A stretch of 64,000 bases of DNA from Rhodococcus sp. IEGM 1409 (GTDB taxonomy: Bacteria > Actinomycetota > Actinomycetes > Mycobacteriales > Mycobacteriaceae): the NCBI RefSeq assembly GCF_030056735.1, contig NZ_JASHKN010000007.1, positions 62,001 to 126,000 of the forward strand, in the 5' to 3' direction. Of this stretch, positions 13,201 to 23,427 are shown piece after piece; the stretch's first letter is position 1; the number at the start of each line of letters is the position of its first letter. The notes under the pieces are model-generated. The model saw nothing but the letters and a program-made list of their open reading frames with translations. It did no database searches and was not told the DNA's origin. The translations under genes and the position numbers were made by a program.

Positions 13201-13980
13201 ATGCATAATCATACGGATACGTGGGGAATTTCCACCGAGGCCTTCCTCGGGTGGTACATCGCCGCCGCCACCGGAGCGGTGGTGATCGCGCTGGCGATCA
13301 GAGGCGTCGCCCTGCGCAAGCCCACCCCTGAATTGCGTACGCTCACACCACCCGAGATGGGTGTACTGACCAGCGACGAGCGTGCAGTACGCGCCGCCAT
13401 GGCAGAACTCGAGAGTGCTGCACAAACCTCCGGCCAGGGTCAGCATGGCCGCTTCACCCGCATCGTCCGCCAGCGGATCGACGACGCCGGTGGAACTGCC
13501 GTGCCCTCGCAGCTCGTGCCGACACTCCCGCTGCCGCTGTTGGAACTTCGTAGCAACCTGGTGCAGGCCGGCTACCTGAACGGCAATCGTGAACGCACTC
13601 TGACGCGGTTGACCGTGGTACCGGTCCTGATCGTCGCCGTGGTCGGCACGATCCGGGCAGGATTCACCGTCGTGAACGAGAACCCGGTGGGATACCTTCC
13701 GCTCGTTGTCATCTGCCTCACCCTGGTTGCCGTAACCCTTCTCCGCCTGAGCCGACGCACTCGTGTCGGCCAAGTCGAATTGCGCCGACTGAAGGACGAA
13801 TACTCCTACCTGACACCGAGTTCCCGACCATCGTTTGCCACCTACGGGGCGGCATCTGTGGGTATTGCGGCGGCACTATTCGGTCCGGGTCGCGACGGCG
13901 GTTGGGCACCCGGATGTGGTGGCGGGTCTTCACCGTCCAGTTGCTCGGCCTTCTCGAGCACCGTGAGCTGTGGGGGGTGA
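13201..13980 (+). CDS. TIGR04222-type membrane protein with Cys/Gly tail (copy 1)
   Basis: A 259-residue membrane protein, first of three tandem paralogues. The shared plan is a short N-terminal DTWGIS motif, one membrane helix (about 14-34), a cytosolic stretch with TPPEMGVLTSDERAVRAAMAEL, two more helices (about 135-185), a conserved RRLKDEYSYLTP motif and a low-complexity tail. The tail here has three Cys (APGCGGGSS, SSCSA, SCGG) and ends CGG. The function of the family is unknown. The gene is the least conserved of the three and lacks the ILRSAELI-type stretch. Its stop overlaps the start of copy 2 (GTGA). Confidence 0.8.
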   Translation: MHNHTDTWGISTEAFLGWYIAAATGAVVIALAIRGVALRKPTPELRTLTPPEMGVLTSDERAVRAAMAELESAAQTSGQGQHGRFTRIVRQRIDDAGGTAVPSQLVPTLPLPLLELRSNLVQAGYLNGNRERTLTRLTVVPVLIVAVVGTIRAGFTVVNENPVGYLPLVVICLTLVAVTLLRLSRRTRVGQVELRRLKDEYSYLTPSSRPSFATYGAASVGIAAALFGPGRDGGWAPGCGGGSSPSSCSAFSSTVSCGG

Positions 13981-14897
13981 GTGCTGTGAACAACTACTAC
14001 TCAGCTGACACGTGGGGGATCCCCAGCCAGACCTTCCTTCAGTGGTACCTGGTGGCAGCCGCCGTCGCGATCGGGCTCTCGCTCTACAGCCGAATGTCTG
14101 CGCGCCGGTCACCAGTGGTCGTCGACGCGGTGCGTCGGCCGCTCACTCCTCCCGAGATCGGCGCTTTGACCAGTGACTACCAAGCGGTGCTGGCGTCGAT
14201 GGCTATTCTGCGCAGCGCAGAGCTGATCAGCCCCGAAGGAAAGACCAAGCTGGCGCTCACTGCGGAGGACAAGAGTCGTCTCGACTGGTTCACCCGCACG
14301 GTGCACAAGCGGCTCGGCAACGGAAAAGTCCCGCTGCGCCAAGTGCGTCTGATGGGACGGCTGAACATCGCACTCGCACAACTACGTACGACGCTGATCG
14401 ACGAGGGTTACCTTCAGCGCCCGCAGGACGGTCTGACTGCTGCCCTTCGGACCGTTCCGATCGTGGCGATAATTGCTCTCGGCGTTATCCGACTCATCGC
14501 CGGGATCGCAGGCGGAAAGCCGGTCGGGTTTCTGCTCCTGACCATCATCGTTCTCGCGCTGATGATTCCGCTTCTACGAATCAAGCGTCGCCGTACGACG
14601 TTGGGCGACAATGAACTTCGACGTCTCAAACACGAAAACTCGTACCTCTCGCCGAAACTACGGCCCTCGTACACCAGCTACGGTCCGTCGCTCGCCGGAC
14701 TCTCGGCGGCACTCTTCGGCTCGGGCGCTCTGGTTCTGATCGATCCGGCGCTCGCTGGGGCAGTGGCTGCGGGCGCCGCGTACAGCCCGGGTGGTGGCAG
14801 TTCGAGCTACTACAGTTGTGGCTCCTCATCCGGTTCATCCGGCTCTGACGGCGGCGGCAGTGGTAGTAGTTGCGGCGGCGGCGGGTGTGGGGGATGA
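13977..14897 (+). CDS. TIGR04222-type membrane protein with Cys/Gly tail (copy 2)
   Basis: A 306-residue paralogue with [19 protein letters not shown] at the N-terminus, LTPPEIGALTSDYQAVLASM, ILRSAELIS, a long cytosolic domain, two helices near 165-205, and RRLKHENSYLSPKLRPSY. After an Ala-rich helix the last 50 residues are Gly/Ser-rich with Cys at SCGS, SCGG and GCGG, three in all. I chose the GTG that overlaps the previous stop; a GTG at 13986 is equally possible. The tail is unlike a simple membrane anchor and resembles a precursor-peptide core attached to a membrane protein, but that is an inference. Confidence 0.8.
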   Translation: MSAVNNYYSADTWGIPSQTFLQWYLVAAAVAIGLSLYSRMSARRSPVVVDAVRRPLTPPEIGALTSDYQAVLASMAILRSAELISPEGKTKLALTAEDKSRLDWFTRTVHKRLGNGKVPLRQVRLMGRLNIALAQLRTTLIDEGYLQRPQDGLTAALRTVPIVAIIALGVIRLIAGIAGGKPVGFLLLTIIVLALMIPLLRIKRRRTTLGDNELRRLKHENSYLSPKLRPSYTSYGPSLAGLSAALFGSGALVLIDPALAGAVAAGAAYSPGGGSSSYYSCGSSSGSSGSDGGGSGSSCGGGGCGG

Positions 14898-15790
14898 CTG
14901 TGTGGGGGATGAGCACTCACGCTGCCGACACCTGGGGGATCCCCAGCAAAGAGTTCCTGTACGGCTATATAGCCGTTTCAGTCACCCTCATGGTTCTGAC
15001 TCTGGTGTGGCGTCTGATGATTCGGGCACGCCGGTACGACGGGTATTCCGCCGAGCAATTGACGCCTCCGGAAGTCGGAATGCTCACCGGCGAGTCACGA
15101 GCCATCGCTGCGTCGTTGGCGATCCTGCGTAGCGCTGATCTGATCACCACCGACGGAGCCGTCCTGCGCCCGTTGGGCCCTGGCGACGAGACCCTGGACT
15201 GGTACACCCTCACCGTGTACCAGCGCCTCGCCCAGCAGGCCGTACCCCATCGTCGGAGGCAACTTGCCGAGCGCATGACGGTGGAAACAGCCCGCCTACG
15301 AAACTCGTTGGCGGACCGGGGATACCTGACCTCCGACAGCACCAGGCGTTCGGTCCTCCTCGCGACACTTCCGCTGAAAATCCTGGTGGCCGTGGGTATC
15401 GCCCGCATTGCATTCGGACTGCACAACGACAAGCCTGTCGAGTTTCTGATTCTCGCCGTGCTCGTCACCGGGTTCAGCATCCCCCTGCTCGGGCTCAACT
15501 TCGATCGCACCGCTTCGGGAAATGCAGCACGCTCGGAGCTGACCAAGGCACACGCCTACCTGGCTCCGCGCAACAAGCCGGCCTTCTCCGCCTACGGACC
15601 GCGCTTGGCGGGGATGTCCGCTGCTCTCTTCACCGGATCGGCGATGCTGATGATCAATCCCGCCCTGGCCTCCGCCGCCGGAATCGGTACCGACGGCAGC
15701 GGAGGTAGCGGGGGTTCAGATGGCGGGAGCAGCAGCTGCAGTGGTGGAGGTGGCGGATGTGGCGGCGGCGGGGGTGGATGTGGCGGATAG
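14894..15790 (+). CDS. TIGR04222-type membrane protein with Cys/Gly tail (copy 3)
   Basis: A 298-residue paralogue: [51 protein letters not shown], two helices near 165-205, then [16 protein letters not shown]. The tail is almost pure Gly/Ser with three Cys ([14 protein letters not shown]) and ends CGG. The start chosen is the ATG overlapping the copy-2 stop; ATG 14909 would remove five residues. The final 75 bp overlap the 3' end of the amino acid dehydrogenase gene on the other strand, so the Gly/Cys tail is antisense to that enzyme's Ala/Ser/Thr tail. Confidence 0.8.
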
Positions 15791-22233: not shown

Positions 22234-22279
22234 TCCGTCTATAGTCGCCGTTAGCAGTTGCACACGGGAGGTGACTCGA

Positions 22280-23104
22280 ATGACCCTGCACGGATTGGGA
22301 ATCGGATGGCGTCCCGAGGTCTCCGGAATCATCGCGCAACTCGACGGCTTGGCGTTCTGCGAAGTCATTGCCGAATCCATCGGAAACGAGATACCTCAGC
22401 ACCTCGGCTCGCTGGGAGTTCCGGTGATACCGCACGGAATCTCGCTCTCGCTTGGTGGGGCCGAGGCGGTCGATCAGGCCAGGATCGATCACCTTGCGCA
22501 TGCATCCCAGCTACTGGACGCCCCCTTGGCGAGCGAGCACATCGCATTCGTGCGTGCGGGCGGCATCGAAGCCGGGCACCTGCTCCCGCTGCCACGCACC
22601 TACGAAGCCGTCGACGCCCTGGTACGCAACATCACCCGGACTCAGGATGGTCTACCGGTGCCGTTTGCCGTCGAAAATGTTGCCGCCCTTTTCGACTGGC
22701 CGGACGACGAGTTGACCGAAGGGGAGTTTCTCGCGGAGATCGTCGAGCGCACCGGAGCCCTTCTGGTTCTCGACATCGCGAACGTCTATGCCAATGCTCT
22801 CAATCGCGGGCGTGATCCGTGGACCGAGCTGAGCCGGCTGCCACTCGAACGAATCGCTTACTGCCACATCGCCGGTGGCAGCATCAGCGACGGTAAATAC
22901 CACGACACGCACACCGATCCGGTACCCCAAGCAGTGCTGGAATTGCTTACGCGATTCACCGCGGCCGGACACCATCCCGCGATCATGCTCGAGCGCGACG
23001 GCAACTATCCGCCCGCACTGGAATTGCTCGACGAGCTCGATGCCATCGCCGACGCAGCGGGTCTGGATCGCATCACCGCGGGCACCGATTGGTCACGCAC
23101 ATGA
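22280..23104 (+). CDS. DUF692 family protein, multinuclear non-haem iron oxidase (MNIO) type
   Basis: A 274-residue TIM-barrel enzyme of the MbnB/TglH/UPF0276 family. All presumed iron ligands can be seen: PHGISLSLGG (His52), LASEHIAF (Glu86, His87), VENVAALF (Glu132), LVLDIANVYANAL (Asp165, Asn168), YCHIAGG (His196), HDTHTD (Asp209, His211) and LERDGNYP (Glu238, Asp240). Characterised members oxidise Cys residues in precursor peptides to oxazolone-thioamides, thiooxazoles or excised carbons. I chose ATG 22280 after GGGAGGTG. Its stop overlaps the next gene as ATGA. The nearest Cys-tailed candidates are the three TIGR04222 proteins 6.5 kb upstream. Confidence 0.88.
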   Translation: MTLHGLGIGWRPEVSGIIAQLDGLAFCEVIAESIGNEIPQHLGSLGVPVIPHGISLSLGGAEAVDQARIDHLAHASQLLDAPLASEHIAFVRAGGIEAGHLLPLPRTYEAVDALVRNITRTQDGLPVPFAVENVAALFDWPDDELTEGEFLAEIVERTGALLVLDIANVYANALNRGRDPWTELSRLPLERIAYCHIAGGSISDGKYHDTHTDPVPQAVLELLTRFTAAGHHPAIMLERDGNYPPALELLDELDAIADAAGLDRITAGTDWSRT

Positions 23105-23427
23105 GCACGCTCGGTGAGCGTCAAGAGGCGCTGATTCGGGCTCTGGTGGCGGGCGGCGAACTACCCGAAGGCTTCGACAAAGACGATGCTGCCGTTGTCT
23201 CGACGGCACTGCTCCGAAAGCGCGCAGGAGAAGTGGCGCAACACCTTCCGGTGGTGCGCCACACTCTCGGCGATCGTTATCTTCAGTTGTTCACAGCGTG
23301 GGCGGACGGGCGGCCGAAGACGTCTTCGTATGCGGACGCCCAAGCATTTGTCGCCCATCTCCAGGACATCGGCGAACTGCCTCGCCCGCCCTGGTATCAG
23401 AGATTTCGAAGGCTCTTACGCCAGTGA
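23101..23427 (+). CDS. Small partner of the DUF692 enzyme (SCO6045 C-terminal-like)
   Basis: A 108-residue soluble, mostly helical protein translated from an ATG that overlaps the DUF692 stop. It begins LGERQEALIRALVAGGELPEGFD, continues ALLRKRAGEVAQHLPVVRHTLG and ends PPWYQRFRRLLRQ. I recall that some Streptomyces DUF692 proteins carry a similar C-terminal extension, so this may be a separated version of that domain. It also resembles in role, not clearly in sequence, the MbnC/DUF2063 partners that recognise precursor peptides. The function is inferred from coupling only. The 3' end overlaps the encapsulin gene by 12 bp. Confidence 0.65.
   Translation: MSTLGERQEALIRALVAGGELPEGFDKDDAAVVSTALLRKRAGEVAQHLPVVRHTLGDRYLQLFTAWADGRPKTSSYADAQAFVAHLQDIGELPRPPWYQRFRRLLRQ

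Follow-up and report, generated by a model that had tools for sequence, protein, structure and literature searches.

The MNIO (DUF692) enzyme, its small partner and three TIGR04222 membrane proteins (T1, T2 and T3; T proteins hereafter) encoded in a 64,000-nucleotide stretch of Rhodococcus sp. IEGM 1409 (contig NZ_JASHKN010000007.1, positions 62,001 to 126,000; the whole stretch is called the window) very probably belong to one protein-modifying system, as judged from sequence comparison, and the Cys tails of the T proteins are probably the substrate of the MNIO. Many known MNIOs oxidise Cys with the help of a partner protein, and some act on other residues (table in PMC12452194). Neither the association of the two families nor the substrate idea is new; both have already been published (Antoine et al., 2025; PMC12452194), and no experimental test of them was found in the literature searched. 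New are the split cassette of the window, the covariation of tail Cys with MNIO, a partner commoner than described, the C-terminal GCGG and the homology to DUF2207_C. The published idea gains firmer genetic support, and a minimal cassette (T, MNIO and partner) can be named together with a precise proposed site, the C-terminal GCGG. A disagreement with the published tail topology is also exposed, and the R. erythropolis group provides a natural experiment in which the genes for the putative substrate and the enzyme have been separated.

The two families occur together well beyond the window. In a genus sample of 28 genomes, MNIO was found in 16 and TIGR04222 above the curated NCBIfam cut-off (43 bits) in 15, the latter being a subset of the former; all 15 have their nearest T gene within 7 kb of an MNIO, and none of the 12 MNIO-less genomes has TIGR04222 above the cut-off, which argues that the association is more than chance. 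The MNIO of the remaining genome, G020 (75% complete), is divergent, at 33% identity. In a phylum sample of 296 genomes, TIGR04222 exceeded the cut-off in 11 and MNIO was present in 15, with both in 10; the match in the eleventh TIGR04222 genome (G055) lies at a contig end. A class sample of 345 genomes, which shares some genomes with the phylum sample, has TIGR04222 in 91 and MNIO in 81 (both in 67, TIGR04222 only in 24, MNIO only in 14, neither in 240; Fisher p ~1e-36, a value that overstates the case because relatives are not independent). T counts in these two samples are lower bounds, because no more than 8 or 9 candidates for TIGR04222 were scored in any genome. The nearest T-MNIO pair lies within 10 kb in 60 of the 67 genomes, always on the same strand and with T upstream in 36, and in the other seven it is far apart or on different contigs. 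Among 80 named relatives of the window MNIO, the flanks of 76 hold a T protein with at least two tail Cys, the exceptions being L239 (none found), L249 (one Cys), L269 (MNIO at the contig start) and L288 (misread frame). The T stop is at most 110 bp from the MNIO match in 73 of 77 named loci with a Cys-bearing T; the larger distances belong to three loci of the R. erythropolis group and to L238 (1 kb). A preliminary description of this DNA had named TIGR04222 and DUF692 genes as lying near each other in other actinobacteria, correctly and in agreement with what is in print (PMC12452194), and had set a co-occurrence survey beforehand as the test that could refute the tails as substrates. The survey did not refute them; genome co-occurrence supports the tails as candidates for the proposed modification.

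The tails also follow the enzyme in composition. T1, T2 and T3 have about 260-306 residues and each carry three Cys in the last 50, ending SCGG, GCGG and GCGG, respectively. The T2 tail is almost identical across four close relatives, and most of residues 268-298 of T3 have a confidence score (pLDDT) below 50, which predicts disorder. An alignment of 44 T sequences was made up of the window T3 and 43 sequences from a pool of 83 diverse candidates carrying two or more Cys in the tail. Body identity to T3 falls to 20% in it, while a pair of tail Cys is invariant, as is the Gly that follows the last Cys. Of 90 T proteins with tail Cys from the named loci, 80 end in GCGG and 82 in CGG, and selection seems to act on the protein, since the Gly and Cys codons vary; in 45 of the 80, an ATG or GTG that could serve as a start also lies within the last Gly codon and the stop. 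With a Cys tail defined, after the tails had been seen, by two or more Cys among the last 50 residues and a Gly plus Ser fraction of at least 0.4 in the last 40, all 118 listed T matches above the cut-off in the class sample were classified. Such a tail is present in 51 of 70 proteins near an MNIO (40 of 42 with T upstream, 11 of 28 with T downstream), in 5 of 22 T proteins far from the MNIO in MNIO genomes, and in 3 of 26 from MNIO-less genomes (a convincing case in G389, doubtful ones in G353 and G480). For Gly/Ser-rich tails only, at least two Cys occur in 51 of 52 near an MNIO versus 3 of 11 in MNIO-less genomes; the other eight of these 11 have zero Cys, and five of the eight end GGGD. 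Counted by genome, a Cys tail is found in 50 of 67 with MNIO versus 3 of 24 without (p ~1e-7), and the signal persists within family f85 (11/12 vs 1/10). Separately, a genome from the window's family (genus g2; L157 in G634) has TIGR04222 without an MNIO match, and its tail ends GSSGG with no Cys, possibly a decay after enzyme loss.

The window MNIO belongs to PF05114, where it scores 250.6 bits at a gathering cut-off of 25. Its H52, H87, E132, D165, N168, H196, D209 and E238 correspond, in the same order and as the same residues, to the eight iron ligands of VcMbnB as named in PMC8888699; the assignment was made without aligning VcMbnB itself, the later six via the MbnB chain of 7dz9 and the first two His via 3bww. 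H211 and D240 are also present, from the alignment to 3bww and 7dz9 and the motif order. Of 150 aligned MNIOs, 148 have these residues at the ligand positions, and the remaining two rows are gapped there; these rows are the non-identical MNIO open reading frames (ORFs) above 100 bits from the flank-survey loci, a set outside which the divergent L102-L104 fall. Gly follows the catalytic Asp in the window MNIO and in 106 of the 150 rows; in FonB this residue is Phe and shapes site choice, according to PMC12668002, so that site choice may differ here. The different MNIO of G020 stands with a 293-aa neighbour bearing a sub-threshold PqqD/RRE match and with ABC exporter genes (L045:1324-4781, minus strand), and this locus looks like another cluster for a ribosomally synthesized and post-translationally modified peptide.

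A partner domain lies beside or is fused to the MNIO in 155 of 157 MNIO ORFs examined, with fusion directly seen in 36 ORFs of relatives. Antoine et al. give at least 10% of clusters for the partner (PMC12452194), and it is far commoner in the present sample. MbnC is the best structural match of the window partner among 164 chains re-aligned, and no Pfam match, including DUF2063/PME-type 1, was obtained for it. Two Rhodococcus sp. encode the partner as a fusion with a membrane part that bears an oxidoreductase molybdopterin domain (L233:10822-12369 and L234:10822-12357; PF00174, E 3.5e-22, tested in L234 only).

In the proposed mechanism, T1-T3, MNIO and partner would act as a single modification cassette. 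The MNIO-partner complex would oxidise Cys in these predicted disordered tails of Gly, Ser and Cys; the core site would be the C-terminal Gly-Cys-Gly-Gly and the likeliest product a 5-thiooxazole at the GCGG Cys, and the membrane-tethered tail would then bind a soft metal, probably copper. This product and soft-metal binding would be expected because BufB, the bufferin maturase, gives the best NCBIfam score of the window MNIO and because FonBC, a maker of 5-thiooxazoles, is reported to favour a Cys-Gly dyad and to have modified an NVCGG variant on one occasion (PMC12668002). Bufferins and captophorins (BufABC, FonABC, HvfABC) are the nearest characterised MNIO systems by that score, and have Cys-Gly core sites and a partner protein. 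However, the BufB score is 172.2 bits against an equivalog cut-off of 310, and no short secreted precursor, DUF2282 match, tail EGKCG repeat or partner DUF2063 match was seen. The methanobactin system MbnABC is alike in its iron ligands and in MbnC, but the MbnB score is only 23.9 against a cut-off of 325 and the candidate substrate here is a membrane protein of about 300 residues rather than a short peptide. The clusters of Antoine et al. share with the window the same two families, Cys/Ser/Gly tails, a partner that may be of PME type 2 and the substrate hypothesis, and differ in that the window cassette is split by a 6.5-kb operon and its tail is argued to be cytosolic.

The tail is most likely on the cytosolic side, which we rate somewhat better than even from the sequence features below. 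T is homologous to DUF2207_C (PF20990; hhalign probability 98.8, E 7.5e-17). The homology covers the soluble domain as well as three spans, and both proteins end in Gly/Ser-rich tails; DUF2207 has an extra N-terminal domain, described as extracellular, which T is without, and no tail Cys is present in seven Gly-tailed DUF2207 proteins read. DUF2207 proteins have been given an extracellular N-terminus and an intracellular Gly/Ser-rich C-terminus, itself a prediction (PMC10457818). T carries 0.07 Lys/Arg before span 1 and 6.7 after span 3, and of 42 T proteins encoded upstream of MNIO, 27 have three spans by hydropathy. This charge bias and span count argue for an outside N-terminus and an inside C-terminus, which would place enzyme and substrate in the same compartment. 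This differs from the topology of Antoine et al. (2025; PMC12452194), who placed the tail in the periplasm from predicted topology. Besides that statement, four spans in 7 of the 42, a last-helix hydropathy above 1.6 in 34% of the 44 T sequences and the periplasmic action of bufferins (PMC12452194) favour a fourth membrane helix, by which the modified tail would lie outside and buffer copper like bufferin. Such an outside tail, which is nested in the core claim and not exclusive of it, appears rather unlikely. It goes against the charge bias and the prevailing three spans; the homology to DUF2207_C stops at the start of the last helix, a segment that carries charged residues in DUF2207; three soluble TIGR04222-like paralogues of Streptomyces-like genomes (L105, L107 and L172) have a Gly tail with one Cys and no predicted span; and MNIOs are assumed to be cytosolic. 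The fullest form of the cytosolic reading, namely that the substrate is a protein resident in the membrane, a relative of the DUF2207 C-terminal domain, that its cytosolic Gly-Cys tail is oxidised to a permanent metal-binding heterocycle at the inner face, and that tail Cys are kept mainly where MNIO is present, is offered tentatively, at slightly below even.

It is improbable that the Cys tails stay unmodified as metal- or redox-binding elements and merely share an operon with an MNIO that modifies another substrate, because Cys in Gly/Ser tails track MNIO presence, T is the most constant neighbour family in the named loci, and compact cassettes leave no room between T and MNIO. Several results nevertheless weigh against the tails as the general MNIO substrate. 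First, 24 of 91 TIGR04222 genomes in the class sample are without MNIO, a share put at about a third by Antoine et al. (PMC12452194). Second, of the 25 Streptomyces-like genomes (family f4) in which both families occur, 14 lack any T with two tail Cys; in these, either the substrate has been lost or the MNIO has a different one. Four of the 14 (G188, G209, G273 and G430) encode remote soluble T-like proteins whose Gly tail holds a single Cys. Run against the 31 f4 genomes, the profile of these proteins reaches E 1e-5 in 15, several matches being local T genes. In 25 f4 loci one ORF encodes both MNIO and partner, and G549 has them separate, the MNIO loci of G505 and G574 lying outside this count. 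A 63-aa protein with six Cys, conserved near MNIO and without a Pfam match (L094:3965-4156 and relatives), is encoded by 22 of the 28 f4 genomes whose MNIO is clear, most copies within 6 kb of it, and by none of the three others (G198, G606 and G582, the last with an MNIO match of only 51 bits). It is a candidate for an alternative substrate or an unrelated zinc ribbon, and its frequent presence near these genes, like the absence of Cys-tailed T from such genomes, favours unmodified tails and another substrate of the MNIO.

The layout in the window is derived. The preliminary description had reported a complete DUF692 enzyme with all metal-binding motifs, a coupled small partner, three Cys-tailed membrane proteins 6.5 kb away and no conventional short precursor gene beside the enzyme, and these observations hold. 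The T3 stop is 6.49 kb from the MNIO start, and a short precursor gene does not fit directly beside the MNIO because only 46 bp separate the Lrp stop from the MNIO ATG and the partner and encapsulin genes overlap. What does not stand is the reading of the distance as plain proximity: no T gene lies directly beside the MNIO in the window, and the gap is due to an insertion into a contiguous cassette, since 10 of 15 congeners have T genes, MNIO and partner side by side, with a short-chain dehydrogenase/reductase gene upstream, directly or about 1.3 kb away. The inserted block is directly seen between T3 and MNIO in five R. erythropolis-group genomes (G000, G001, G002, G012 and G013). It encodes on the minus strand an amino-acid dehydrogenase, whose ORF overlaps the T3 end by 75 bp, and E3, E2, E1b and E1a of a branched-chain-type ketoacid dehydrogenase, and on the plus strand an Lrp/AsnC regulator. 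An E1a orthologue is at the same spot in the other four inserted genomes (96-97% identical) and elsewhere in R. opacus-like and some MNIO-less genomes (80-85%), and the best E1a match in five uninserted R. globerulus-like genomes reaches only 38-39%. The T stop runs into the MNIO start in three uninserted relatives inspected (GGATGA in two, GGGTGA in the third). The window T3 ends GGATAG, so that its TAG stop has lost this overlap, and GGGAGGTGA stands ahead of the MNIO ATG; MNIO and partner now follow the regulator gene and have a ribosome-binding site of their own. The T gene of G008 is in two overlapping fragments, only 45-47 partner residues were matched in G011, G016 and G022, and T1 is partial or absent in the relatives L050, L055, L057 and L058.

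This position 46 bp behind the Lrp gene, with a separate ribosome-binding site and the T3 overlap gone, would suit an R. erythropolis MNIO recruited to the ketoacid dehydrogenase/Lrp unit and no longer serving the tails, which is very improbable given that the T2 and T3 Cys tails, MNIO and partner are conserved across the five inserted genomes and that MNIO stays with T in genomes whose dehydrogenase locus is distant. That MNIO and TIGR04222 are unrelated chance neighbours here, 6.5 kb apart with unrelated genes between them, has next to no probability, being contradicted by co-occurrence and contiguity in relatives.

Table 1. Features of the split cassette in window positions.
Feature	Positions	Strand	Basis
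T1, TIGR04222 membrane protein, short divergent tail ending SCGG	13201..13980	+	NCBIfam TIGR04222 75.9 bits, translation
T2, TIGR04222 membrane protein, Cys tail ending CGGGGCGG	13977..14897	+	140.9 bits; GTG overlaps T1 stop
T3, TIGR04222 membrane protein, Cys tail ending GCGGGGGGCGG	14894..15790	+	144.2 bits; ATG overlaps T2 stop
T3 Gly/Ser/Cys tail, predicted disordered, proposed modification site	15695..15787	+	
Inserted block: ketoacid dehydrogenase operon and Lrp/AsnC regulator	15716..22233	mixed strands	families, congener comparison
GGGAGGTGA, Shine-Dalgarno-like, ahead of MNIO	22266..22274	+	sequence
MNIO (DUF692) enzyme	22280..23104	+	PF05114 250.6 bits, iron ligands; ATG at 22280
MNIO partner, 108 aa, all-helical, putatively PME-type 2-like	23101..23427	+	ATG 23101 overlaps MNIO stop at 23104

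All three T proteins of the window thus score above the TIGR04222 cut-off; the ORF bounds scored were 13201-13980, 13902-14897 and 14870-15790, and the likely starts read from the sequence are 13201, GTG 13977 and ATG 14894. The host genome is near R. erythropolis and R. qingshengii, the closest named relatives of the MNIO being 95-96% identical, and a search at E 0.001 gave no further MNIO or TIGR04222 match elsewhere in it. Within window positions 21649-22280, the short distance from the Lrp/AsnC gene suggests that MNIO and partner may be co-transcribed with this regulator of the inserted operon. An MNIO-less Rhodococcus has a sub-cut-off TIGR04222 fragment with an in-frame stop (L060, G014:C11:126201-126416), a possible remnant of a lost cassette. 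Directly after the partner, genes for a family 1 encapsulin and a DyP peroxidase lie on the minus strand (window 23416-25520), and the pair stands behind the cassette in 10 of 15 Rhodococcus loci and is not found there in five R. opacus-like loci. The C-terminal sequence of the DyP peroxidase resembles a cargo-loading peptide.

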